Part shown: positions 46,480 to 64,000 of the stretch, in pieces
How the letters are laid out: each line of letters begins with the position of its first letter
How positions within the stretch are numbered: position 1 is the first letter of the stretch
Assembly (NCBI RefSeq): GCF_004010325.2
Contig: NZ_SADR02000018.1
Location: 1-64,000, forward strand
Direction: 5' to 3'
Source of the DNA: Mesorhizobium sp. M00.F.Ca.ET.216.01.1.1
Lineage (GTDB): Bacteria > Pseudomonadota > Alphaproteobacteria > Rhizobiales > Rhizobiaceae
Length of the DNA: 64,000 nt
Position numbers and translations under genes: made by a program
Notes under the pieces: generated by a model
What the model was told of the DNA's origin: nothing
Databases searched by the model: none
The model's input: the letters and a program-made list of their open reading frames with translations, nothing else

Positions 46480-47220
46480 ATGCGCCTGCTGCAAAAACAT
46501 CTCTGCGCGATCGCGATGTCGCTATGGGCGGTCTCGGCAGGTCATGCCGCGCCGCTCGTCCAGCCGACGCTGCACATCAAGCCGGATGCAAGCGGCAGCG
46601 GCCGCGTTGCGCTGACGCTCGATGCCTGCGGCGGCAAGACCGACACAAGGATACTCTCGGCGCTGGTCGAAAACGGGATTCCCGCCACCATTTTTGTCAC
46701 CGGCATCTGGCTGAAGCGCAACGCCGACGCCGTTGCCATCATGCTGGCGCATCCCGATTTGTTTGAGCTGGAAAACCATGGCGGCCGTCACGTCCCGGCC
46801 GTCGACACGCCGCAAAAGATCTATGGTATCCGCAGCGCCGGCAGCGCGGACGCCGTGCTGGCCGAGGTCGAGTCGGGTGCCGCCGCTCTTGCCGGGACCG
46901 GCGAGCCGGCGCCGAAATGGTTTCGCGGCGCGACCGCCGAGTACAGCCCGTCCGCCATCGCCATGATCCGCAAGCTTGGCTTCAAGGTCGCCGGCTTCTC
47001 GATAAACGGTGATGGCGGCTCATTGCTGGGCGCCAGGGAGACCGCCCGGCGCATTGCCGCCGCCAAGGACGGTGACGTCATCATCGCTCATATCAATCAG
47101 CCGACCCACGCGGCCGGCGAAGGCGTGGTGCAGGGGCTTCTGGCGCTCAAGCAGAAAGGCCTGACCTTCGTGCGCCTCGATGATGTCGATGATGTCGGCG
47201 ACGACGGCACCACCGACTAG
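46480..47220 (+). CDS. Exported polysaccharide deacetylase-like protein
   Basis: A 246-residue exported protein with a signal peptide (LCAIAMSLWAVSAGHA) and a NodB-like (CE4) fold. Motif 1 reads ALTLDACGGK, with alanine where most CE4 enzymes have a second, metal-binding aspartate. Motif 2 is ENHGGRHVP (H-x3-H) and motif 3 is KWFRGATAEYS. The late IIAHINQP histidine is kept. It may be a divergent active deacetylase, or altered in metal use; the target polymer is unknown. It follows the GT9 gene with a gap of about 130 bp. Confidence 0.82.
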   Translation: MRLLQKHLCAIAMSLWAVSAGHAAPLVQPTLHIKPDASGSGRVALTLDACGGKTDTRILSALVENGIPATIFVTGIWLKRNADAVAIMLAHPDLFELENHGGRHVPAVDTPQKIYGIRSAGSADAVLAEVESGAAALAGTGEPAPKWFRGATAEYSPSAIAMIRKLGFKVAGFSINGDGGSLLGARETARRIAAAKDGDVIIAHINQPTHAAGEGVVQGLLALKQKGLTFVRLDDVDDVGDDGTTD

Positions 47221-47374
47221 GCCGCCTCGCTGGGTGCCATTTCCAGGGGCATTGTCTTTCCTGCCTATCACCTGAGAAGATTTCTGACCCGCACCGATGA
47301 TTTCCGCCCGCCTGCGTTGTCCTGATCAATAGGCGCGCCTGGATGGTCCAGCGGCCCGGATAGCGAGGTGGTCC

Positions 47375-51991: not shown

Positions 51992-52807
51992 GTGTCGGAT
52001 CGGGTTGGGGTGGTGCTGAAAATATTGGAAATTTCCGAGCGACAGACGTCGAGGGCGGCCGGCTGGTCGCGGCGGACAGGGGCTTTTTCGGCGGTCCTGC
52101 TGCTCACCGTCCTCATCGGCCATCGATACGACCTTGTCGAAACGCCGGCCTTCCTGTGGGTGCTGGCCATCGTCGCGCTGCTTGCCGCCTTGGCGCTGCT
52201 GTTCGCCGGATTTGCCTTCTCCAGGCTATGGAATTTCGGCGACCGCGGCGGTCGCGATCTCAGCGTCGGCGCCCTGTTGGCGCTTCTGGTGCTCACTCCC
52301 TACGGCGTTGCTGCCTACTGGGCGGCGACCTACCCGCCGCTCCGCGACATCTCGACGGATTTCGACGATCCACCGGCGCTCGACATATCCACCCGGACCA
52401 GGGATATGAATCTGCTTTCGCCGCCGACGCCCGGGGCGCAGCGCCTGCAGACCGAAACCTATCCGCTCGTCACCGGGCGCAGCTACAATCTGCCCTTCGA
52501 CAGCGTGCTCGACGCGGTCGAGACCGTGCTCGGCCGGCGCGACTGGCAATTTGCGGCGCCGTTTCCCGACGCGGAAGGGCAAAGTGAGGTGACGATCAAC
52601 GCCGTGGCCAAGAGCTTCGTTCTTGGCCTGCCTGCCGATGTCGCGATTCGTGTGAGCAACGACGGCGATGCGATCATCGTCGACATGCGCTCGGCCTCGC
52701 GCTACGGCCGCTACGACCTTGGCGACAACGCAGCCCGCATTGTTGATTTCCTCGCCGAGCTCGATCAGCAAGTCGCTGGCCAGGTCGGCGTCGCGCCGAC
52801 CGAGTGA
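51992..52807 (+). CDS. DUF1499 family membrane protein
   Basis: A 271-residue protein with about three N-terminal spans (TGAFSAVLLLTVLIGHRY; FLWVLAIVALLAALALLFAGFAF; VGALLALLVLTPYGVAAYWAAT) and a C-terminal DUF1499 domain (PPLRDISTDFDDPPALD; VETVLGRRDWQFA; ADVAIRVSNDGDAIIVDMRSASRYGRYDLGDNAARIVDFLAEL). The role is unknown; the name rests on those patterns. The start is GTG at 51992 with AAAGG seven bases upstream; GTG codons at 52010 and 52013 are alternatives. It ends convergent with the LacI-type gene. Confidence 0.86.
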   Translation: MSDRVGVVLKILEISERQTSRAAGWSRRTGAFSAVLLLTVLIGHRYDLVETPAFLWVLAIVALLAALALLFAGFAFSRLWNFGDRGGRDLSVGALLALLVLTPYGVAAYWAATYPPLRDISTDFDDPPALDISTRTRDMNLLSPPTPGAQRLQTETYPLVTGRSYNLPFDSVLDAVETVLGRRDWQFAAPFPDAEGQSEVTINAVAKSFVLGLPADVAIRVSNDGDAIIVDMRSASRYGRYDLGDNAARIVDFLAELDQQVAGQVGVAPTE

Positions 52808-52853
52808 TATCGCTTGGCACCGCAAAAAAATGCGGCTTGAGTCTACGGACAGA

Positions 52854-53867
52854 CTATTCGGCCGGGTGGAATCTGGCTTGCAGCAAGACTGTCGCGACCG
52901 GCCCAAGCGGATTGGCGATCCGGCTCTCCAGGACCTCGATAAGTTTGTGCCCGACGTCTGCCATGTCTACGGAATGAACGCCGATCTTCGCTGGCAGGAA
53001 GCGCGCCAGACGTGTGCTGTCACGGGCGACGATGTGGACGTCGCGGCCCGGTGCAAGACCTCTTCTGCCAAGAGCGTGTAACGCCCCCAGAAGGCCCAGT
53101 TCGTTGGCGCATGCCAAGCCTGTCGGCGGATCTGACGACGCCAGCAAGCGATCGAACCAGGCTGCGCTCGATTCCATGGTGAACATGCCATGACCGATCA
53201 GCGATTGATCGATCGGAATACCGGCCTCGGCCATTGCCCTTCCATACCCGGAAAGACGCATGGCGCTCGCCTGATCCTCCGGAACGAGAAGTTGCAGCGC
53301 AATGCGTCGACAGCCCTTATCCATGAGCTGTCGGGTCGCATCGTAGGCAATCTGCTCATTGTCGATATCGACATAGGGATACGCGATGTCCAGGTCGGTT
53401 CTTCCAAACGCGACGAACGGTATGCGTTGGTCCAGCAGCAGCTTGACGCGCGGATCACCCGAGACCATGCGTGTGATGATCAGGCCGTCTGCGCTGCGCG
53501 CCTGAAGCAGGCGCCGCACACTTTCGACAGGATCGTCGTCGGGTGTGGTGGAATAGATGGACAGGCTATAACCTGCTTGCCGCGCCGCCAGGGTCATGCC
53601 TTCGATCAAAGGAAGCTTCGCCAGATCGCACAGATAGTCGCGCGTTTCCATCGGCAGCACTGCCGTTAGCGTCAGGGTTTGTCCGGTTTTGAGCGCCCGG
53701 CCGTGATGATTTGGTACATAGCCGACCCGCTGCGCCACCTCCTTGACGCGCGCCACGGTTGAGGGATGCACTTCCGGCCCTTCCTTCAGAGCGCGGGATA
53801 CGGTGGTCACCGAAAGGGAAAGTTCCGCCGCGATTTGTTTCAGATTGGCCATATCGCCCGACTTCAT
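52854..53867 (-). CDS. LacI-family transcriptional regulator
   Basis: A 337-residue repressor of the LacI/GalR family. The N-terminal helix-turn-helix and hinge helix are MANLKQIAAELSLSVTTVSRALKEGPEVHPSTVARVKEVAQRVGYVPNHHGRALKTG, and the rest is a periplasmic-binding-protein-like ligand domain ending LESRIANPLGPVATVLLQARFHPAE. It is divergent from the ABC importer operon and probably represses both at the two GTAACGTTAC sites; the effector is likely the imported compound or its product. ATG 53867 and ATG 53852 (MANLKQ) are both possible; the second is the more usual family start. Confidence 0.92.
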   Translation of the reverse strand: MKSGDMANLKQIAAELSLSVTTVSRALKEGPEVHPSTVARVKEVAQRVGYVPNHHGRALKTGQTLTLTAVLPMETRDYLCDLAKLPLIEGMTLAARQAGYSLSIYSTTPDDDPVESVRRLLQARSADGLIITRMVSGDPRVKLLLDQRIPFVAFGRTDLDIAYPYVDIDNEQIAYDATRQLMDKGCRRIALQLLVPEDQASAMRLSGYGRAMAEAGIPIDQSLIGHGMFTMESSAAWFDRLLASSDPPTGLACANELGLLGALHALGRRGLAPGRDVHIVARDSTRLARFLPAKIGVHSVDMADVGHKLIEVLESRIANPLGPVATVLLQARFHPAE

Positions 53868-53900
53868 TTGCGAAAGCGCCGGCTGTTTTTGCTGAGCGTC

Positions 53901-53931
53901 GTAACGTTACCGGATTCGACCGAACGGTCAA
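53901..53931 (-). promoter_or_regulatory. LacI-type operator O1 overlapping the regulator's own promoter
   Basis: The palindrome GTAACGTTAC is at 53901-53910. On the minus strand TTGACC (53926-53931) and TAACGT (53904-53909) make -35 and -10 boxes 16 bp apart, so the operator covers the -10 of the regulator gene. A second inverted repeat, GACCGAACGGTC, lies at 53918-53929. The centre CG is typical of LacI-family sites. Confidence 0.7.
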
Positions 53932-53973
53932 ATCCAAGCGCACTGCAAATGAACGGACCCGCTTGGAAGGAGC

Positions 53974-54013
53974 TTGACTCCGAGGCGTTTCGCAGTAATC
54001 GTAACGTTACGAT
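53974..54013 (+). promoter_or_regulatory. Importer promoter with LacI-type operator O2
   Basis: TTGACT (53974-53979) and TAATCG (53996-54001) form a promoter with a 16-bp spacer. The perfect 16-bp palindrome ATCGTAACGTTACGAT at 53998-54013 covers the -10 and start region. Its 10-bp core is identical to O1 and lies exactly 100 bp from it. Binding of the LacI-type protein here should block the importer operon. Confidence 0.75.
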
Positions 54014-54067
54014 TAAAAAAAATGCCCATCTAAGCGACATTTTGATGAATCCGGAGGAGGAGAACCT

Positions 54068-55108
54068 ATGTCCTGGCTACGCATTTCCTTGGCAGTGGTC
54101 GCAGTCTCGGCCGCCTTGCCCGTCCATGCCCAAACAGTCACCATCACGACCGCAGGCGGCGACTATGGCAACGCCATCAAGGAGGCCATGTGGGGCCCCG
54201 CCGCAAAAGAGCTTGGCTATGATGTCCGCGAGGAGACGCAGAGCGACGGCCTGGCCGCCCTGAAGATGCAGGTCACTTCGGGTGCAGTCACCACCGACAT
54301 CATCCATCTGGGTTCGCCGGAAGGCGCGCAGGCGGCCGCACAGTCGCTGCTGGAGCCACTCGACTACAAGATCATCGATCCCAAATCCGTGCCGGACGGC
54401 GCAAAGTCCGACTACTGCTATCCGTTCGATTCCTATGGCACCGTCATGTCGTGGAATACCAAGACCTATGGCGAGAACCCGCCGAAGACCTGGGCGGAAT
54501 TCTGGGACGTTGCCAAATTCTCGGGCAGCCGCGCCCTGCGCGCCAACGCGCAAGACCTGATTGAGATCGCGCTTCTCTCCGATGGCGTGACGCCGGCGGA
54601 CGTCTATCCCGTGCTCAGCACGCCGGAAGGTCTGGAGCGCGCTATCAAGCGGCTTGAAGCGATCAAACCAAATGTCTCGGTGTGGTGGACATCGGGAGCT
54701 CAGTCCGCGCAGTTGCTGAAAGACGGCGAAGCGGATTTGGTCGTTACCTGGAACGGACGGGCCCAAACCGTGAAAGCGGATGGCGGCGCGGTTGACTACA
54801 CGTTTAAGGGTTCCGTCATCGGCACGGACTGCCTTGGGGTGCCGAAGGGAGCTGCGAACAAGGAAGCGGCCATGAAGCTCATCGCAGGGATGACGCAGCC
54901 CGCGCGCGTCGCGAGGCTGACCGATTTCATCGCCTATGGCCCGGTCAATCCCGCGGCATATAAGGGTGGCCTTATCCCCGAAGACCGTCTGAAGACCTTG
55001 GCGACCGCGCCTGAGAATGCTGGCACTTCGGTGTTTTCGAATGCGGACTGGTGGGTCAGGAACGGCGAGGCCGCCCAAAAAGCCTTCGATGAAATGATGA
55101 ACCGCTGA
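54068..55108 (+). CDS. ABC transporter substrate-binding protein (spermidine/putrescine-type)
   Basis: A 346-residue exported binding protein. The signal peptide is MSWLRISLAVVAVSAALPVHAQ; the mature part opens TVTITTAGGDYGNAIKEAMWGPAAKELGY and shows DSYGTVMSWNTKTYGENPPKTWAEFWDVAKFSG, a pattern of the PotD/AfuA-like class of polyamine, iron or small-anion binders. The ligand cannot be told from sequence. GGAGGAGGAG sits upstream of the ATG, a strong ribosome site fitting a protein needed in excess. It is the first gene of the LacI-controlled operon. Confidence 0.9.
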   Translation: MSWLRISLAVVAVSAALPVHAQTVTITTAGGDYGNAIKEAMWGPAAKELGYDVREETQSDGLAALKMQVTSGAVTTDIIHLGSPEGAQAAAQSLLEPLDYKIIDPKSVPDGAKSDYCYPFDSYGTVMSWNTKTYGENPPKTWAEFWDVAKFSGSRALRANAQDLIEIALLSDGVTPADVYPVLSTPEGLERAIKRLEAIKPNVSVWWTSGAQSAQLLKDGEADLVVTWNGRAQTVKADGGAVDYTFKGSVIGTDCLGVPKGAANKEAAMKLIAGMTQPARVARLTDFIAYGPVNPAAYKGGLIPEDRLKTLATAPENAGTSVFSNADWWVRNGEAAQKAFDEMMNR

Positions 55109-55141
55109 GTCTCGAGTTCATCAGCTCTAAGGCTGGGGCAC

Positions 55142-56182
55142 ATGATGAAGTCGCTCTCGATCACCATCGACAGCGTGCGTAAGGCCTATGGGTCCTACGT
55201 CGCGCTGGACGACGTTTCGCTCGGCATTCAAGCTGGCGAATTCCTCACGCTGCTGGGGCCGTCCGGATCGGGTAAGACCACGTTGCTCATGGCTCTGGCC
55301 GGTTTTGTCCGGCCCGATTCCGGTAAAGTCTTGTTGGGTGATCGGGACATCACCCGTCTGGCCCCCAACAAGCGGGACATCGGCATAGTATTCCAGAACT
55401 ACGCCCTATTTCCCCACATGAACGTCCTGGCGAATGTCGAATATCCGCTGGCGCTGCGCAAGACGCCGAGAGCGGAGGCCCGTCAGCGGGCGTTTGACAC
55501 CTTGGCCCGCGTGAAGCTGGAAGGTCTGTCGGAGCGCAGCATTGCCGCACTGTCCGGCGGCCAGCGCCAGCGAGTGGCACTAGCGCGGGCGATCGTATTC
55601 GAACCACGCGTGATGTTGATGGACGAGCCGCTGTCGGCGCTCGACAAGAATCTGCGCGAAACCATGCAGTACGAAATTCGGCGTCTGCACGATGATCTGG
55701 GGATAACCACAATTTATGTGACCCATGACCAGCGCGAAGCGTTGATCATGTCTGATCGGATTGCGGTGATGAATTGCGGCCGCATCCAGCAGATCGATAC
55801 GCCGCAGCGAATTTATGATCGTCCATCGACCCGCTTCGTCGCGGAGTTCATGGGCGAGGCCAACATTATGGCCCCGGGTTCAGTGCGCAGAATCGACGGC
55901 TCCGAAGCGTTACGCGAAACTTTGATGATTCGCGCCGAAAGCTTCCATCTTGATGCGAAGCTCGTCGGGCGAGACGGAGTGGCTCTCGAAGGAATACTGC
56001 GCGCCAAGGCGTTTCGCGGCGAAAACTGGCTTTTGACGCTGACGCTTGACGGTGGGCAAGAGGTTCTTGTCTGCATTCCGGCAGCGCTGGCCGGCGGCTG
56101 CGCCGAACTCGCCGTCGACCAGCGGCTGACCGCATATGCACCGGCGGCGAAAGTTCACGCGATACCGGGAGCGATCGCGTGA
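55142..56182 (+). CDS. ABC transporter ATP-binding protein (PotA type)
   Basis: A 346-residue ATPase. Walker A is LLGPSGSGKTTLLMALAGF, the Q-loop FQNYALFPHMNV, the signature LSGGQRQRVALARAIVF, Walker B VMLMDEPLSALD, and the H-loop YVTHDQREALIMSDR. After residue 240 comes a TOBE-like regulatory domain, as in PotA and FbpC. It hydrolyses ATP to drive import with the two permeases. Two ATG codons open the gene; the second may be the real start. The stop overlaps the next gene by four bases (GTGA). Confidence 0.95.
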   Translation: MMKSLSITIDSVRKAYGSYVALDDVSLGIQAGEFLTLLGPSGSGKTTLLMALAGFVRPDSGKVLLGDRDITRLAPNKRDIGIVFQNYALFPHMNVLANVEYPLALRKTPRAEARQRAFDTLARVKLEGLSERSIAALSGGQRQRVALARAIVFEPRVMLMDEPLSALDKNLRETMQYEIRRLHDDLGITTIYVTHDQREALIMSDRIAVMNCGRIQQIDTPQRIYDRPSTRFVAEFMGEANIMAPGSVRRIDGSEALRETLMIRAESFHLDAKLVGRDGVALEGILRAKAFRGENWLLTLTLDGGQEVLVCIPAALAGGCAELAVDQRLTAYAPAAKVHAIPGAIA

Positions 56183-57066
56183 CCGTCGCCGTGGATCCCG
56201 CGCTCGCCGCAGATGCGCGACGCGAGCGGCGGTTCTTCCTTTCGCTTTCGCTCCCAGCGCTGTTCATCGTTGGACTGGCGGCGATACTGCCCATCCTCTG
56301 GATCATCCGGCAATCCTTCCTGACCACCGGAGGTGAGTATACCGTCGGCAATTACGAGAAGGTGCTTTCGAGCGGACTGACATGGTCGGCGCTCGCAACG
56401 ACCGTTGAGCTGTCCTTGGGGACGCTGGCGGTCTGCATTCTTCTCGGCACCCCCCTGGCGCTCGCTCTGGCCAGCGCCAGACCAAGGGTGGCCAACGTGC
56501 TGATGGCCTTCGTCATGCTGCCGTTGTGGACCTCTATTCTGGTGCGCACCTATGGTTGGCTCGTGCTCTTGCGGCGCGATGGCCTGATCAACGCGGCTTT
56601 GACAGGTTCAGGGCTGACAGCCGAGCCATTGCCGCTGGTCTACAACTTCACGGGAACGCTCATCGGCATGGTTCACTACATGCTGCCGCTCTTTCTGCTG
56701 CCCGTTTATGCCGCGATGCGCGATATCGACGCAAACCTCATCCGCGCGGCGGCGAGCATGGGAGCCACTCTCGGGCAGGTGGTCCGCACGGTCATTCTGC
56801 CTCTTTCGGCCGGCGGCATCTTCTCAGGTTCTACGATCGTCTTCATCTACACCATAGGTTTTTTCATCACGCCGGCGGTGCTTGGCGGCGGCAAGGTAAA
56901 TCCTCTCTCCATCCGGATCGAGCGCACGCTGTCGACCTTTCAGGACTGGGGTTCGGCGAGCGTCTTGGGCATTCTGCTCCTCGTTCTGATGGCGCTGATC
57001 GGTGTGATGTTCCTGGCGGCAAGACGGCTGATGACGCGCAACAAAGTCGGTGTGGCCCATGCTTGA
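56179..57066 (+). CDS. ABC transporter permease (PotB type)
   Basis: A 295-residue inner-membrane permease with six spans after a charged N-terminus. The EAA loop, which contacts the ATPase, reads NLIRAAASMGATLGQVVRTVILPLSAGGIFSG. The start is GTG 56179, whose TG is shared with the ATPase stop, so the two are coupled. The family is the PotB/PotH group, matching the PotC-like permease that follows. It belongs to the LacI-controlled importer. Confidence 0.93.
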   Translation: MTVAVDPALAADARRERRFFLSLSLPALFIVGLAAILPILWIIRQSFLTTGGEYTVGNYEKVLSSGLTWSALATTVELSLGTLAVCILLGTPLALALASARPRVANVLMAFVMLPLWTSILVRTYGWLVLLRRDGLINAALTGSGLTAEPLPLVYNFTGTLIGMVHYMLPLFLLPVYAAMRDIDANLIRAAASMGATLGQVVRTVILPLSAGGIFSGSTIVFIYTIGFFITPAVLGGGKVNPLSIRIERTLSTFQDWGSASVLGILLLVLMALIGVMFLAARRLMTRNKVGVAHA

Positions 57067-57850
57067 AGCCTATCCGCACAACAGGCTGGCCCGTATCCTG
57101 CTGTGGGGCTTTTCTGGGCTCGTAATGGCGTTTTTGATGCTGCCGACGCTGGTGGTCGTGCCGCTCTCCTTTTCGGCGTCCGATCTTCTCGAGTTTCCGC
57201 CGCGCGCATATTCGTTGCACTGGTACGAGAATTTCTTCGGTTCAGCGACATGGATGGCCGCGCTCAGGACGAGCCTGATCCTTGGGACATTGACAGCGAC
57301 GGTCGCGGTGCCCTTGGCGCTGCTGGCCTGCATCTCGATGAATCGGCTCGGCGGAAAGGCTGCGGCGACCATTCAGGGCGTTCTGCTCACCCCCTCAGTC
57401 GTGCCAGGAATTCTGCTTGCGATCGGTCTCTTCTTCGTGCTGGCGGCGCAAGGTCTGATCGGAACGCTGTTCGGCGTGCTGGTCGGGCATGTGGTGCTGG
57501 CCATTCCGGTCGTGTGTATTGTGTTGTTGCCCGCTCTGGCCCGCTTTGACTGGAACCAGGTTCAGGCGGCGCGTAGCCTTGGCGCAGACTGGGCAAGAGC
57601 CATTGGCGGAATAGTTGTTCCGCAACTTCAGATCAGCTTGTTGTCGGCAACATTGATGGCCTTCCTGACGTCGCTCGATGAGTCTGTCATTTCGATCTTC
57701 GTCGCAAGTGGTCGCAACAGCACGCTGCCGAAGCTCATGTTCCTGTCGCTGCGCGATCAGATCGATCCGACCATTGCGGCGATCTCGACATTGTGGACCG
57801 CCATCGTCGTGGCCGTCGTCCTGATTGTGACCCTTCGCCAAAAATCCTGA
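57059..57850 (+). CDS. ABC transporter permease (PotC type)
   Basis: A 263-residue permease with six spans, the PotC/PotI-type partner of the preceding gene. The EAA loop is QVQAARSLGADWARAIGGIVVPQLQISLLS; the N-terminal span (ILLWGFSGLVMAFLMLPTLVVVPLSFSAS) and the late TSLDESVISIFVASGRNSTLPK are typical. ATG 57059 overlaps the previous stop by eight bases; a GTG at 57050 is also open. The next gene, a nucleoside phosphorylase, begins 14 bp downstream on the same strand. Confidence 0.93.
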   Translation: MLEAYPHNRLARILLWGFSGLVMAFLMLPTLVVVPLSFSASDLLEFPPRAYSLHWYENFFGSATWMAALRTSLILGTLTATVAVPLALLACISMNRLGGKAAATIQGVLLTPSVVPGILLAIGLFFVLAAQGLIGTLFGVLVGHVVLAIPVVCIVLLPALARFDWNQVQAARSLGADWARAIGGIVVPQLQISLLSATLMAFLTSLDESVISIFVASGRNSTLPKLMFLSLRDQIDPTIAAISTLWTAIVVAVVLIVTLRQKS

Positions 57851-57864
57851 CCGAGACTGGAAAC

Positions 57865-58785
57865 ATGCCCACCAATCACCAAGCAGCCGACGATCTGACG
57901 GATCATTCGACGGACATACCCCAGGTGGAGCTGGCGATCATCACCGGGTCGGCAAACTGGGGGCTTGCGTTCCCGGAAGATGTCGAGGTCGATGGCGTGC
58001 GCACCTTGCGGCGGGACATGAGTTTTGAAACGCCTTTCGGTCGCACCGACAACTGGAAGCTGCTCCAGTTCGATGCGTCGATTACCGCCGAAGGCAAAAC
58101 GAAACGGGCCTTGTGCATGTATTCGCACGGCAATCCCCGCGACCATATTGACCATTCCTGCCATCGCCGCGCGTTCTGGGTATTGATGAAAGCGGGTGTA
58201 CGGCAAGTCCTGGCCTGCTCGACCATTGGCGCCGTCAACAAGGCGATCAAGCCCGGCGACATGGTGGTGAACGCCGATATCATCGAACTGACGCAGACCC
58301 CGTTTTCACTGCTTCCCGGCCGCCAGAGCTTCGACTGCTCGGGCAAGCAGATCGTATGTCCAAGATGTGCGGCAGTTCTGGTCGAAACCGCCCGCCGTCA
58401 TTGGCCGGCCGAATGCCGCGTTCATGGCATCGAACAGCAATTGGTGGCTGCCCACTGTTACGGGCCGCGACTGACAACCCCAGCCGAAGCCTTGGCGTTT
58501 CGCAGCATGGGGGCGGATGTACTCAACCATTCGATCGCCCCTGAGGCCACCTTGTCGCGCGAGATCGGCGCATGTTTCGTGCCCTGCGCCTTCGTAACGG
58601 CAGGATTCAACGATTATATGGACCGTAATCGCCAGAAGTTGCTGCAGGAGGACGTGTTGCCGAACCTCTCCATAATAGCCTCGCGAGTTGCGCTGGAAAC
58701 CGCCGCACGACTTCCGGCTAATCCGGAATGCTCTTGCCAGGGTTTGAAGTCGCCTCAACCAGCAGAGCGTTCCAGCCGTTTCTGA
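57865..58785 (+). CDS. MTAP/PNP-family nucleoside phosphorylase
   Basis: A 306-residue phosphorylase-fold protein of the MTAP/PNP group. The alignable parts are AIITGSANWGL, YSHGNPRDHIDHSCHRRAFWVLMKAGVRQVLACSTIGAVN, and MGADVLNHSIAPEATLSREIGACFVPCAFVTAGFNDYMD. Where MTAPs have MT before the PE, it has NHS. It is rich in cysteine (a CPRC pair, and CSC at 289-291, which recalls the CxC motif of archaeal MTAP II and PNP). It probably cleaves a nucleoside or methylthioadenosine with phosphate. It is the last gene of the importer operon, so it likely acts on the imported compound. Confidence 0.82.
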   Translation: MPTNHQAADDLTDHSTDIPQVELAIITGSANWGLAFPEDVEVDGVRTLRRDMSFETPFGRTDNWKLLQFDASITAEGKTKRALCMYSHGNPRDHIDHSCHRRAFWVLMKAGVRQVLACSTIGAVNKAIKPGDMVVNADIIELTQTPFSLLPGRQSFDCSGKQIVCPRCAAVLVETARRHWPAECRVHGIEQQLVAAHCYGPRLTTPAEALAFRSMGADVLNHSIAPEATLSREIGACFVPCAFVTAGFNDYMDRNRQKLLQEDVLPNLSIIASRVALETAARLPANPECSCQGLKSPQPAERSSRF

Positions 58786-58822
58786 GGTATCAGGAGTGTA
58801 GGGCGAACTCGTTGGCGAGGTC

Positions 58823-59731
58823 TTAGCCAGCCGGTTCGAAAACGCCGTCGATGGCCGGGTCGCCGTCGGTGCTGACGAGGCCACGCGCCACCAGATCCTC
58901 CAAATGGGCAAGCACCGACAGGCCGGCCGCACCATGCAGGCGCGGGTCGGTATCGCGATAGATCGCCTCGACCATATCCCTGATCGTGCGGTCGCCACTC
59001 CCGATGCGTTCGAGGATCGCCTGCTCGCGCATCTGGCGGTGCGCCTTCAACTCACGCATGAAGCTCAGCGGCGCGGTTACCGGCCCGCCATGGCCGGGCA
59101 GCAGCAGGCGGTCGTCGCGCTCGATCAGGCGATCGAGCGAGGCCATGTAGTCGGCCATCGCGCCATCCGGCGGCGCGACGATCGAGGTCGACCATGCCAT
59201 GACGTGGTCGGCCGAAAACAGCACGCCGGTTCCCTCCAGCGCAAAAGCCGCGTGATTGGCGGTATGGCCCGGCGTCAGCACCGTCCTGATCGCCCAGCCA
59301 TCGCCGCTGGTCACCGTATCGTCGGGCAAAACGACATCCGGGGTAAAGCCGGTGTCGGCACTGGCATCGAGCGGATTGACCTCGCCGATGTGCAACGGCC
59401 GCGCCGGGCGGTGCGGGCCTTCGGCCAGGATAGCGGCACCCGTACGCTGCTTCAGCCGGGCCGCCAGCGGAGAATGGTCGCGATGGGTGTGGCTGACGAA
59501 AATGTGGCTGACCGGCCTGTTTGCGATCACCTCGAGCAATGTCTGGAGATGCGCATCGTCATCCGGACCCGGATCGATTACCGCCAGCGTCTCGCGGCCG
59601 ATGACGTAGCTGTTTGTTCCGTGAAAGGTGAACGGGCTGGGGTTCTTGGCAGTGACGCGCTGCACGCCGGGCGCCACGGTCACGCCCTGGCCGTAGGCCG
59701 GATCGAAGCGCGTGTCGAATTTGAGGGCCAT
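58823..59731 (-). CDS. MBL-fold metallo-hydrolase (LACTB2-like)
   Basis: A 302-residue metallo-beta-lactamase-fold hydrolase. The metal motif HxHxDH reads SHTHRDHSPLAARL, the later ligands are in TPGHTANHAAF, SADHVMAWSTS and LPGHGGPV, and a C-terminal winged helix (residues about 215-300) completes the LACTB2/RNase Z-like layout. Substrate is not clear; LACTB2 is an endoribonuclease, while others act on thioesters. ATG 59731 gives MALKFDTRFDPAYGQGV; a much longer open frame upstream is false. It is divergent from bioY and convergent with the phosphorylase gene. Confidence 0.9.
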   Translation of the reverse strand: MALKFDTRFDPAYGQGVTVAPGVQRVTAKNPSPFTFHGTNSYVIGRETLAVIDPGPDDDAHLQTLLEVIANRPVSHIFVSHTHRDHSPLAARLKQRTGAAILAEGPHRPARPLHIGEVNPLDASADTGFTPDVVLPDDTVTSGDGWAIRTVLTPGHTANHAAFALEGTGVLFSADHVMAWSTSIVAPPDGAMADYMASLDRLIERDDRLLLPGHGGPVTAPLSFMRELKAHRQMREQAILERIGSGDRTIRDMVEAIYRDTDPRLHGAAGLSVLAHLEDLVARGLVSTDGDPAIDGVFEPAG

Positions 59732-59848
59732 GGCAGAAGGCGTTGAACTCTGTTCCAGGAGACGGCAAAACCGATTGCCGCATAACACGGAAGCCAATAT
59801 AGGAAAATGCGAGCCCGCAACCAGCGGCAGTCCGGAATGGGGAAGATC

Positions 59849-60442
59849 ATGGCAATTACAACAACGATGCGTCCGCTCATCTCTCTCGCTCTGCCCGAAA
59901 AGGGCGCGGCCCGCCTGGTGACGCAGCTTTTGCTGGCGATCGCTGGAACCCTGGTGCTGACCTTGTCGGCAAAGACCAAGGTTGTGCTCGGACCGGTCGA
60001 TATCTCGATGCAGACCTTGGCCGTCTTCCTGATCGCCGCGGCCTTCGGCATGCGCCTTGGCGTCGCCACGCTGCTTCTTTACATGGCCGAGGGCGCGATG
60101 GGCTTTCCGGTTTTCCAGAGCACGCCGGAAAAGGGCATCGGCATCGCCTACATGCTCGGCTCGACCGGCGGTTATCTGGCCGGTTTCGTGGTCATGGCGG
60201 CAATCGTCGGCTGGGCCGCCGACCGCGGCTGGGATCGCCATCCGGTCAAGCTCTTCAATGCGATGCTGGTGGCCGAGATCGTCATGATGGCAATGGGCTT
60301 TGCCTGGCTGGCACTGCTGATCGGCCCGGAAAAGTCATGGCAGTTCGGCGTCGTGCCGTTCATCGTCGGCGACCTGATCAAGGTGGCACTGGCCGCAAGC
60401 CTGGTGCCGGCCGTCTGGTCACTGCTGCCGAAACACCCCTGA
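59849..60442 (+). CDS. bioY: Biotin transporter BioY
   Basis: A 197-residue BioY, the substrate-binding S component of a biotin ECF importer. Spans and motifs include LVTQLLLAIAGTLVLTLSAKTKVVLGPVDISMQTLAVFLIAAAFGMRLGVATLLLYMAEGAMGFPVF and GSTGGYLAGFVVMAAIVGWAAD. BioM and BioN are not seen nearby; many BioY act alone or with a shared energy unit. ATG 59849 has GGGGAAG upstream; ATG 59837 is possible. A hairpin at 60467 follows. It is the last gene before the conjugation cluster. Confidence 0.94.
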   Translation: MAITTTMRPLISLALPEKGAARLVTQLLLAIAGTLVLTLSAKTKVVLGPVDISMQTLAVFLIAAAFGMRLGVATLLLYMAEGAMGFPVFQSTPEKGIGIAYMLGSTGGYLAGFVVMAAIVGWAADRGWDRHPVKLFNAMLVAEIVMMAMGFAWLALLIGPEKSWQFGVVPFIVGDLIKVALAASLVPAVWSLLPKHP

Positions 60443-60466
60443 AATCTGATTGAACGGAATATAGCC

Positions 60467-60489
60467 GGCAGCCACTTGAAGTGGCTGCC
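60467..60489 (+). terminator. Terminator-like hairpin after bioY
   Basis: GGCAGCCACT (60467-60476) pairs perfectly with AGTGGCTGCC (60480-60489), 24 bp after the bioY stop. No clear T run follows. A second small stem, CAGACG/CGTCTG, lies at 60493-60511. Confidence 0.6.
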
Positions 60490-60524
60490 TTCCAGACGGA
60501 GCATACGTCTGAATTTTCGCGGCG

Positions 60525-60541
60525 GTTGTGAGCTTCACAAC
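60525..60541. terminator. Palindrome at the 3' end of the relaxase gene
   Basis: GTTGTGA and TCACAAC form a seven-pair stem at 60525-60541, overlapping the last codons of the relaxase gene. It may serve as that gene's transcription end, or mark an element junction; no target-site duplication is visible. Confidence 0.35.
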
Positions 60542-62271
60542 CCGACGCCGCGCTTCCTTCCAAAATTCCAAGTCACGCCGTCGCCGCGCGCCACCCCAGA
60601 AAGATGATTGCCGAGTCGTTTTTCGAGCGACGGCGACCAGGGCACGAGCCTAAAACCGAGCCCGTCATCGATCATCGCGAAACGGCCGGAAGCGAGCGAG
60701 AAACGCCGCCGGTAGATGCCGGCCACACGATCGCCATCTACGGCCTTCGTGAAGGACAGACCGGTTTCGGCGGCGAGTTTAGTGCCGAGCGCATCGACCT
60801 CTCGGCTACGCAGCGTGTCGATCAGGTTGCGCGCAACAATGACGCGCTGTCCCTCGCGCCTGGCCAGATCGTGCCTGACAAGGTGATCGACCCGATCCTC
60901 CAGCGCCTGTCTTACGTCCTGGCTAAAGCCACCATCGCCGAGCTCGGCTGGCTCGCGCGCAACGAGTTGCCGGTCGAGCCACGTCGCGCCACCGGCATGG
61001 ATCTGTTCTTTGATCGAAAGGTCGGAGCAGACGGCGAGCGCGACACGGCCACGGCCCTTCGCATCCTCGTAACGGCGCAACTCCACGATCGAGCCCGGTG
61101 CGGAATCTCCGGTTGCGTCGAGATCATGAAAGCGGATGTGATGTGTGCTTCCGTCGATGCCGTCGACGATGGCATAAGCCGAACCGCGCAGTTCGTCATC
61201 AAAGCCACATTCGAGCAGCCGACCGATGACTGGCGTCTCGATCTGCTCGGCCGCGAGAACATAGCCCGATGTTCCCCTGTCGATGCCGTGCTCGGCGAGA
61301 CTGCGGTGCATGCGCTTGATGATATCGCCTCGTTCGCCGAGAGAGCGCATCGTCGCCTCGGCTTCTTCGGCCATCATCCATGCGCCGGGACGGATCTCGT
61401 TGGCGAGGCCGAGGCTTTCGAGCCTGCGGAGCCGCCCAACCTTAATTGTCAGGAACTCGTCGGGCTGGCTGTCCAGGTGCGGCGCGAGATCGACGAGGCC
61501 ATGACGATCCATGTCGCGGGCAAGCTGGCGGTCAAGCTGTGTCCAGCGCTCAGTATCGACCTGCCGCTCGATGGTTTGGCGGATGTCCTGGTCGGTGCGG
61601 AGCCCCAGCGTCTGGGTGAGAATTTCGCCTGCGCGGTCGCGCATGCCCTGGCGGATATAGTCGCGTGAGATGACGAGATTCTCGCCGTCATCGGCGACAC
61701 CGCGAACGAGGATATGAACATGGGGGTGTTGGGTGTTCCAGTGGTCGATGCCGGTCCAGTCGAGTTTTGTGCCGAGATCGCGCTGCATGTCACCCATTAG
61801 GTTGCGGGCGAAGCCTTTCAGGTCGCCCAGTTCGACAGCGTCATCAGGTGAGACGACAAAACGAAAATGATGCCGGTCATCTTTGCATCGATCACAGAAG
61901 GCATCATGATCAGTCTCGTCCGTATCAGGACCAAACATCTTCGCCGTCTTGCCGTCGCGCGTCACGCCCTCGCGGCGGAGATATTTGAGGTGGGACGCCA
62001 CAGATGTGACGCGGCCGAACTGACGCACCACGCGCGCCTTGACGACGGCGCCGCGCGAGCGGCTGGTGATGAGGCGATTGGCGCGGATGCTCGCCGTCCG
62101 GCCACGTCCAAAAGTCGAGAGGCGCGGCGAGATCAAATGGCCTTCGCGTGAAATGTTCCCACCGGCACGCTGTGCGGCCGCGAGCGCCTGAAAGGTGAAA
62201 GGACGCGCGCGCAGACCGGCCTTCGAACGGATACGACCAGGCCGCACGCGGAAGTCGTCATCACGGTTCAT
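60535..62271 (-). CDS. DUF3363-type relaxase/mobilization nuclease (RlxS-like)
   Basis: A 578-residue MOB-family relaxase of the kind carried by Mesorhizobium integrative elements (RlxS-like). The DNA-nicking centre is seen in the three-histidine motif QHPHVHILVRG (H182, H184, H186) and a candidate catalytic tyrosine at Y97 in VASHLKYLRREG. The C-terminal half is the DUF3363 domain. It would nick the element at oriT and lead the strand through a mating pore. The ATG overlaps the stop of the 84-residue gene upstream (ATGA). No traG/virD4 or integrase gene is present on the bioY side. Confidence 0.88.
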   Translation of the reverse strand: MNRDDDFRVRPGRIRSKAGLRARPFTFQALAAAQRAGGNISREGHLISPRLSTFGRGRTASIRANRLITSRSRGAVVKARVVRQFGRVTSVASHLKYLRREGVTRDGKTAKMFGPDTDETDHDAFCDRCKDDRHHFRFVVSPDDAVELGDLKGFARNLMGDMQRDLGTKLDWTGIDHWNTQHPHVHILVRGVADDGENLVISRDYIRQGMRDRAGEILTQTLGLRTDQDIRQTIERQVDTERWTQLDRQLARDMDRHGLVDLAPHLDSQPDEFLTIKVGRLRRLESLGLANEIRPGAWMMAEEAEATMRSLGERGDIIKRMHRSLAEHGIDRGTSGYVLAAEQIETPVIGRLLECGFDDELRGSAYAIVDGIDGSTHHIRFHDLDATGDSAPGSIVELRRYEDAKGRGRVALAVCSDLSIKEQIHAGGATWLDRQLVAREPAELGDGGFSQDVRQALEDRVDHLVRHDLARREGQRVIVARNLIDTLRSREVDALGTKLAAETGLSFTKAVDGDRVAGIYRRRFSLASGRFAMIDDGLGFRLVPWSPSLEKRLGNHLSGVARGDGVTWNFGRKRGVGL

Positions 62272-62522
62272 GCCCGTCGCTCCGGTGAGGTGCGGTATCT
62301 ATTTGGAATAGGTTGAGAAGTGGCGATTGCGCACATCGCAGATTTCCGACACACATCGCAAAGCGAGGCGAGAACCATAAGAAAAACAGCCGATCGGCCG
62401 AGCCGCACATCGCGGTCCTTTATCCTGCCGCTCCTCTCGGCTCGCTCTGCGTCCGACCCTCCCTCCGCAATTTCCGCGACGAAACAGACCGGAATGCGAT
62501 GGACCAGGAATGCGGCGATCAT
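62268..62522 (-). CDS. Small protein between transglycosylase and relaxase
   Basis: An 84-residue frame that shares four bases with both neighbours (ATGA at each end), the mark of a coupled operon gene and not of chance. The sequence opens MIAAFLVHRIPVCFVAEIAEG, has a basic, charged middle, a short hydrophobic stretch with two cysteines (AVFLMVLASLCDVCRKSAMC), and ends NRYRTSPERRA. I do not recognise a family. It may be an accessory protein of the relaxosome. Codon content is plain enough that a non-coding explanation cannot be ruled out. Confidence 0.6.
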   Translation of the reverse strand: MIAAFLVHRIPVCFVAEIAEGGSDAERAERSGRIKDRDVRLGRSAVFLMVLASLCDVCRKSAMCAIATSQPIPNRYRTSPERRA

Positions 62523-63613
62523 CGCGGTCTCAGTGACGAACGCTGAATGAACAGGCTAGGAACAACGGGTTTCGACACCGATCCAGTTTCGCCCGGTTGT
62601 GGCTCGACCGCTGTCAGGTCAACCACAGCAACGCCCTCCGGCGACCTCATAGTAGCCAAATGGATCCTCGCGAAGATGGTCTCAGCCTCAACATCCGCGT
62701 TGCGCTTGCCATGCGATGCTGCGACATTCCGGATGTCGCTAGAGTGCACGAAAATGGCCGCATCGAGTGCGCTCGTTCTGCCCGCCGCTTGCTGTGCGCG
62801 CGACAGCGTGGTGATTGTTCCGTTGATCAGCGGCGCGAGTTTCCTGACGTAGTCGATCGTCTCGCGCGGCAGCGGACGGCCTGCTGAAAGGTGCTCTTCG
62901 TATCGCCCGGGGCCGGCATTGTAGGCAGCGAGGAAGCCGTTGCGACCGAAGCGGTCGAGCATCTCGCGGAGGTAAGCTGCACCGGCAAGAATGTTGTCGC
63001 GCGGCTGATAAGGATCGTCGCCCAGATGATGCTTGATGCGCAGTTCTTCCCATGTCGCCGGCATGATCTGCATCAGGCCCATCGCACCCTTCCGCGACAC
63101 AGCATGAACATCTCCAACGCTCTCGACATGCATGACGGCGCGAAGCAACTGTTCAGGAATGGCAAAACGTTTCGCCGCCTCCCGGATATGCGCCGACCAG
63201 GGATCGCCGGATGAAGTCTCGCTGTTCGAGCGCACCGGCCGCTCACTATGCGCGGGAGGTTCTGCGCAAACAACGGTCACGGAAAGGGTAAGCATGACGC
63301 ATGCAGAAAGCGCTGTGACGCCTTGGCAGATAACTGCGTAAGCACTGCCGTCCCGACGCACCAGCAGCCTGCCACCGTGCTCGCTGCCGTCAAGGGCAAG
63401 GCTTCGCCGGCCGCACTTGCTTGCCGCAAATTGCGGCGCGATGAACATCCTGAACGACGGGCAAGCGTCCGGCCGCCTTTGACCTTCGTTGTGTGCGGCA
63501 GCCGCCCGACGGGCGATCGGGTCGAAGGGTTTGACCGGCACCCGATCGATCAAAGGGTTTGATGCAGAAAGTTCGCTGAGGCGCAATCGGAGCATCCGAT
63601 CAGCCTTGCTCAT
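62519..63613 (-). CDS. Lytic transglycosylase (conjugation-associated)
   Basis: A 364-residue SLT-type transglycosylase. The catalytic domain reads IPEQLLRAVMHVESVGDVHAVSRKGAMGLMQIMPATWEELRIKH, with the catalytic glutamate in HVES, and continues DNILAGAAYLREMLDRFGRNGFLAAYNAGPGRYEEH. About 100 residues lie before a hydrophobic signal-like stretch (VICQGVTALSACVMLTLSVTVVCA), unusually far in. Such enzymes open peptidoglycan for a type IV mating pore. I use ATG 63613, overlapping DUF736 by 14 bp; starts at 63664 or 63595 are possible. Confidence 0.85.
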   Translation of the reverse strand: MSKADRMLRLRLSELSASNPLIDRVPVKPFDPIARRAAAAHNEGQRRPDACPSFRMFIAPQFAASKCGRRSLALDGSEHGGRLLVRRDGSAYAVICQGVTALSACVMLTLSVTVVCAEPPAHSERPVRSNSETSSGDPWSAHIREAAKRFAIPEQLLRAVMHVESVGDVHAVSRKGAMGLMQIMPATWEELRIKHHLGDDPYQPRDNILAGAAYLREMLDRFGRNGFLAAYNAGPGRYEEHLSAGRPLPRETIDYVRKLAPLINGTITTLSRAQQAAGRTSALDAAIFVHSSDIRNVAASHGKRNADVEAETIFARIHLATMRSPEGVAVVDLTAVEPQPGETGSVSKPVVPSLFIQRSSLRPR

Positions 63614-63926
63614 CGCGCTTCGACGGCCGGCTCCAGTGCAAGGCCCAGACACTTTTCTCGGCATCGAACTGGAACAAATTGGCGCGGATCGGCTGCGTGA
63701 AGGACGGGTCGTCTATGGAAACAGAGAGATAGTTGCCAGCCTTCTCGCCGGTACGTTCCCACGCCGCGCCGATCTGCATGCCTTCGCAGAAGATGCGATG
63801 GTCCGGCGCGTTTTCGGCATCCGATTTCTCGGCAGGCAGGATGGCGAGCTTCGCGTCGAGCGTCAGCGTTGAGATGTTGCCGAAGAAGCCGTCATCGTTG
63901 CGGGTGAAGCTGCCGATCTGGGCCAT
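63600..63926 (-). CDS. DUF736 family protein
   Basis: A 108-residue DUF736 protein. It opens MAQIGSFTRNDDGFFGNISTLTLDAKLAILPAE, continues HRIFCEGMQIGAAWERTGEKAGNYLSVSIDDPSF and ends in ANLFQFDAEKSVWALHWSR, a plain match. DUF736 genes are typical of conjugative elements and plasmids in alphaproteobacteria, beside relaxase genes; function is unknown. AGGAA precedes the ATG. Its last codons overlap the transglycosylase start. The final 74 bases of the window, upstream of it, hold no gene I can call. Confidence 0.9.
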   Translation of the reverse strand: MAQIGSFTRNDDGFFGNISTLTLDAKLAILPAEKSDAENAPDHRIFCEGMQIGAAWERTGEKAGNYLSVSIDDPSFTQPIRANLFQFDAEKSVWALHWSRPSKRDEQG

Positions 63927-64000
63927 TGCGGTGTTCCTTTCTTGAGCGTTGATACGGGTTGGTGCGAGCCGTCACGGCTTGCCAGGAGCCGGTACGCCGC

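Follow-up and report, generated by a model that had tools for sequence, protein, structure and literature searches.

A relaxase cluster beside bioY in Mesorhizobium as the putative end of a probably rearranged integrative and conjugative element

We analysed a 64,000-nucleotide stretch of DNA from Mesorhizobium sp. M00.F.Ca.ET.216.01.1.1 (the window), in which a cluster of transfer genes that includes the relaxase gene rlxS stops beside the host core gene bioY. The window corresponds to bases 1-64000 of contig C98 in the source genome (G000), a 7.24-Mb draft in 690 contigs; the other G-numbers are comparison genomes of the same genus, and C-numbers are contigs. C98 is 140,816 bases long, and the window thus stops short of the full relaxase-bearing element. 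Judged from its sequence, this element is an integrative and conjugative element (ICE) of the ICEMlSymR7A type, and it is probably rearranged and excision-defective. We lean towards a model in which the ICE has this cluster as its left end, the module to which the cluster belongs is reversed, and the junction with bioY is a recombination breakpoint and not an attachment (att) site.

Relaxase cluster and the contig beyond the window

Three genes on the minus strand point leftward to bioY. Nearest to it is an rlxS-like MOBP relaxase gene (60535-62271, 578 amino acids; DUF3363, 1.8e-89), whose match to the NCBIfam RlxS model NF041267 (2.5e-168, 562 bits) lies under the curated cut-off of 850. Then come an msi107-like lytic transglycosylase gene (62519-63664; Pfam SLT, 4.6e-26), the true start of which is uncertain, and an msi110-like DUF736 gene (63600-63926; Pfam, 4.4e-37), which the transglycosylase open reading frame (ORF) overlaps. 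The window closes on the 3′ end of a traF-like S26 peptidase gene, also on the minus strand (63972-64000; in full C98:63972-64523). These family matches bear out a preliminary description of this DNA, which had DUF736, transglycosylase and relaxase genes running toward bioY with core genes directly beyond. Relatives of rlxS are present in 131 of 146 genomes (G000 counted). Elsewhere in G000, a stray 263-bp copy (C11:160667-160928, 85%) repeats window 63351-63613, which is the 5′ part of the transglycosylase gene up to the DUF736 overlap.

Past the window, C98 carries an HTH_17 gene in the position of rdfS (C98:64593-64883, minus strand), and this gene, traF and the transglycosylase gene stand in R7A-type order upstream of rlxS and of the interval next to it, discussed below as a candidate origin of transfer (oriT). 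Also past traF and the rdfS-like gene are genes for a RovC-type DNA-binding protein, a second DUF736 protein, a SLOG-domain protein and a toprim/DUF7146 protein. On the plus strand there follow an integrase gene (C98:72471-73781; Phage_integrase, 1.7e-8), a tRNA-Pro fragment (C98:76097-76145, recognised by comparison with the host tRNA-Pro), traG for the coupling protein (C98:86314-88311; T4SS-DNA_transf) and trbB-trbI (C98:88931-98527). HipA and a sugar-transport block, the latter named by eye, come between the integrase and the coupling protein. Five trb genes were tested by family search, giving matches to TrbL, CagX, TrbI and T2SSE and, weakly, TrbE; the others were assigned from position and name. 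Because traF, the rdfS-like gene, the integrase, traG and the trb genes continue on the same contig, the cluster belongs to an ICEMlSymR7A-type ICE, in keeping with the earlier suggestion of an ICE edge akin to the Mesorhizobium symbiosis-island transfer region. On this side, the same description had found neither an integrase nor a tRNA nor traG. This holds for the left, while all three (the tRNA-Pro as a fragment) lie rightward outside the window; the integrase and coupling protein, for which it had advised looking there, are 8 to 22 kb past the window end.

The final 17 kb of C98 appear to be accessory. When C98:124001-140000 was compared with 10 relatives, it gave no long syntenic match, only pieces of 0.5-1.3 kb at 86-91% and a transport operon at ~70% in G026 and G116. 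A duplicated segment at C98:108547-113795, around a run of N (113578-113675), is probably an assembly artefact.

The bioY junction

The bioY gene (59837-60442, plus strand; Pfam BioY, 5.6e-35) had a strong DNA match (E <= 2e-126) in 138 of 145 other genomes of the genus and a weak one in seven, which were left unjudged for bioY-rlxS continuity. None of the bioY matches listed for other genomes extends past query base 770 (window 60469) towards rlxS, and the rlxS-bioY order, which in all sister genomes would have marked a long-fixed locus, was not seen among the listed matches of the 138 strong-match genomes. In G014, G087 and G142, an 82-84% identical relaxase lies on the contig of bioY, ~63 kb distant. 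In G014, G087, G096 and G097, no more than ~250 bp separate the rlxS end from DNA with the 3′ end of an oligopeptide ABC ATPase gene, identified by its sequence without a family search; in G142 the distance is ~2.9 kb. With bioY matched elsewhere without rlxS, and rlxS relatives sited elsewhere, the junction is, on these comparisons, not a fixed locus.

The edge itself was first placed at 60443, directly after bioY; we would move it to ~60490, the end of a hairpin with a 10-bp stem (60467-60489, plus strand). The hairpin folds at -21.1 kcal/mol (z -3.65), and none of 200 shuffles was as good. In five sister-clade genomes, bioY is followed at the same place by the terminator form AGCCGGC..GCCGGCTTTTT. 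We infer that the hairpin is the native bioY terminator with its T-run replaced by element DNA; a simple terminator scan requiring a T tail did not list it. Native bioY homology stops at ~60469, element homology in relatives starts at ~60475-60487, and element sequence runs from about 60490, leaving ~45 bp between the junction and the rlxS stop. The junction zone (60487-60493) reads GCCTTCC, a 7-bp sequence repeated at C98:76146.

An assembly misjoin at about 60490 would give the same picture. The draft has 690 contigs, there is an N run with duplicated sequence near 113.6 kb on C98, and a palindrome lies at the join. However, there is no N at the join, both sides run on for tens of kb, and the same rlxS end abuts other DNA in relatives, so that we regard a misjoin as very unlikely.

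It is also improbable, if a little less so, that the ICE used the 3′ end of bioY as its integration site, with a 180-bp bioY 3′ fragment on C187 (35085-35263) as the other att site. This fragment, on the same strand and 85% identical, comprises the last ~150 bp of bioY and ~30 bp downstream, before a polysaccharide/cys block (named by eye). It lies just upstream of the gene block that follows bioY in G003, G114, G006 and G035, and C187 also bears a gene related to one that the G014 and G087 elements carry in their right-hand region. Yet the copy has indels and 15% divergence, the compared relatives have no bioY piece at the rlxS end, the genes directly to the left of the copy look by eye like polysaccharide biosynthesis and not ICE genes, and the junction falls beyond the bioY stop. 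C187 also holds a second cysQ-like 3′ end (46736-47311), ~2 kb after the intact gene.

Elsewhere the rlxS end has other neighbours. G041 has it at the smc/VanZ side, after ~150 bp of unplaced DNA, and G052, G055 and G131 have it at a TRAP-transporter/dehydrogenase locus (named by eye). Since smc, bioY and the ABC gene all lie within ~70 kb in G003, there are hints that these three contexts of the rlxS end arose by local rearrangement rather than by independent insertions. A tRNA-Gln or tRNA-Pro fragment was sought at the rlxS-side junction of relatives and none was convincing; a 21-bp tRNA-Gln-like match in G131 is off the junction, at the leftmost part of the sequence compared.

Two observations concern the bioY neighbourhood more widely. 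At window 52806-58838 there is a block with a LacI-type regulator, an ABC transporter and a phosphorylase, absent there in G074, G087, G142 and G042. In G040 (C82, ~245-285 kb), the neighbourhood of bioY is broken, where a metallo-beta-lactamase gene ends, by 19 kb of DNA bearing the same integrase family; overlap of BLAST matches suggests a 38-bp repeat of C98 58831-58868.

tRNA-Pro core and gene order

Relatives of the integrase (E <= 1e-60) were found in 40 of 144 genomes, G000 among them. Six integrase-bearing stretches (G047, G077, G103, G007, G125 and G053) begin at the oligopeptide ABC locus, and in G047 a second integrase of the same family adjoins an intact tRNA-Pro(CGG). The G000 integrase belongs to the tRNA-Pro(CGG) class. 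The tRNA-Pro core on C98, which over 49 bp shares 98% identity with the host gene at C221:275756-275804, lies inside the element, past the integrase and away from the bioY edge. The host tRNA-Pro stands free of the element: on its 3′ side the ABC gene is ~220 bp off with no element between, and on its 5′ side there are ~6 kb of other genes relative to G003.

In the G000 genome no second tRNA-Pro core was found besides the tRNA gene itself, which would suit a long-decayed remnant without transfer ability. We consider this highly unlikely, because rlxS and the integrase gene are open, stop-free frames and there are family matches for traF, the rdfS-like gene, traG and five tested trb-region genes. 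The preliminary description had left a choice between a cryptic boundary and a remnant; a cryptic, non-att boundary fits better, with ICE genes present beyond the window.

The order of the integrase, core and rlxS was tabulated for 21 stretches, the table showing matches above set limits of identity and length. All three occur together in 11, of which nine have traG/trb genes at the core end, one (G103) has them at the rlxS end and one is too short. Both traG and trb come after the core in G000, G041, G087, G014, G142 and G131, and traG alone does so in the examined stretch of G055. G047 and G077 have trb after the core but traG on the rlxS side, and the G052 stretch stops after the core. For G041, G052, G055 and G131 the displayed strand was chosen so that rlxS reads left, and adjacency alone is informative. 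Only G103 has rlxS followed by traG and trb with the core at the opposite end, by the ABC-gene side. Among the remaining stretches, G007, G125 and G053 have core and integrase oriented as in G103 and no rlxS in the examined part, G096 and G097 show rlxS and rdfS only, and G040 has the integrase without core or rlxS in the examined part. G116, G018, G144 and G036 are without this integrase in the examined stretch and have traG on the 3′ side of rlxS, with 5-16 kb of other genes in between in G116, G144 and G036 (those of G144 being, as named by eye, a thiamine operon). G046, left out of the table, has rlxS, and neither such an integrase nor traG was seen in 40 kb. More broadly, traG directly follows rlxS in 12 of 30 loci (by eye) and lies within ~200 nt after it in six of nine named loci, some of which repeat the same genomes.

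In the ordinary order, which we take from G103, the att core and integrase would stand beside host DNA and rlxS would read into traG and trb. In G000, the module rlxS-oriT-traF-rdfS-...-int-core would be reversed relative to traG/trb, with a breakpoint ~50 bp past rlxS. Such a reversal would put the relaxase end against the host and leave the att core inside, before traG/trb. Since the att core is indeed internal and host DNA adjoins the relaxase end, the fusion to the bioY terminator would be a recombination breakpoint and not an att site. Because no second core was seen besides the tRNA gene, the integrase can probably not excise the element as one unit.

Three points weigh against a reversal. 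In G000, G041 and the ABC-gene group alike, the rlxS-side end falls at a near-identical point ~45 bp after the stop; a random breakpoint would predict no such agreement. Core, integrase and rlxS stand together in the supposed ordinary order in G103 only, and the ancestral order is therefore not fixed. Finally, no right end for the G000 element was located in the 690-contig assembly.

The first of these points could instead mean that the rlxS end is a true second integration end, a unit of 60487-76152 or longer having been inserted site-specifically in the bioY terminator through a short core. The rlxS-side terminus is (C)ATTCCAGA-like in G014, G041, G096, G097 and G142 and slightly altered in G000 and G087, the 7-bp direct repeat GCCTTCC occurs at 60487 and 76146, and the junction is a hairpin site with a TTGAA centre. 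However, when four other genomes were tested alike, each of them had 7-8-bp repeats at different, unmatched positions, and the terminus motif is unrecognisable at the rlxS end in G052, G055 and G131. The internal core retains the entire tRNA-Pro 3′ end plus ACCAGA in G041, G087 and G077. Direct repeats, proposed initially as a mark of the left edge, were absent beyond chance length on C98, C187 and the examined part of C221, and no matching end repeat lies rightward there. We consider such an end unlikely. A GAACTGGCAT repeat at both ends of the G087 element was set aside, being 10 bp only and having its right copy in DNA alike in G014. For G041, five of eight genomes compared match the right-hand flank (up to ~1.9 kb at 65-73%), and none of the five fixes the right end.

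Rather unlikely, too, is a broader version of the reversal model, in which the relaxase-integrase module of tRNA-Pro ICEs repeatedly flips or relocates as a unit, with the relaxase end outermost at several host loci (bioY, the oligopeptide ABC ATPase gene, the smc side and the TRAP/dehydrogenase locus), as a lock-in switch or a second integration route. If modules do flip, this would likewise account for ICEs left stranded at places other than their tRNA site.

Candidate oriT and comparison with known elements

The interval between the transglycosylase gene and rlxS (62272-62518) is likely non-coding. A small ORF here (62268-62522), listed as an unknown gene in the preliminary description, has no Pfam match, and in relatives that still align there it is mostly broken by frameshifts or stops; its being a gene is not supported by these comparisons. 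The plus strand carries TATCCTG at 62421-62427, in the context CTTTATCCTG|CC, which resembles what we take to be the MOBP nic consensus. This motif was found in 29 of 48 loci, some of which are one genome under two names, at 153-156 nt upstream of rlxS in 28 and at 164 nt in one; the exact motif is missing in the other 19. As a control, windows tiling the same loci, tested interval included, contained it at any position in 75 of 1171 cases. The rlxS 3′ end had been considered as a nic site and was dropped, the conserved nic-like site being upstream of rlxS. In ICEMlSymR7A, oriT is placed downstream of traF-msi107, beside rlxS (PMC11963761). Given this position and the conserved motif, the interval is likely the oriT. 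RlxS would still nick it at about 62427/62428, leading DNA rightward.

With ICEMlSymR7A-type ICEs, as set out in PMC8627217, the G000 element shares the rdfS-traF-msi107(SLT)-oriT-rlxS layout, the duplicate DUF736 genes and a type IV secretion system of traG and trb. It differs in lying beside bioY, with the tRNA-Pro core internal and rlxS against host DNA. In that source, Colombi et al. (2021) recorded 16 integration sites in 41 genomes, tRNA-Pro included, and drew Mesorhizobium ICEs by integrase genes and flanking repeats. Delineation of this kind would mis-draw the element of this lineage, because its integrase and att core are internal and its relaxase borders host DNA. Neither bioY nor inversion occurs as a word in the main text of PMC8627217, and our literature search found no paper on Mesorhizobium bioY as an integration site.

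The tripartite ICE3 (ICEMcSym1271) has the same transfer genes, and its boundaries can likewise seem unmatched initially; it requires three integrases and att pairs. The tRNA-Pro elements of G047 and G103 have an integrase of the same family (64-65% amino acid identity) and the tRNA-Pro core in common with G000. G047 differs in keeping traG beside rlxS and in its second integrase by the intact tRNA-Pro, and G103 in having core and integrase host-side with rlxS reading into traG. Beside these systems, the G000 element looks to be of a known kind, in an order and at a site that look new.

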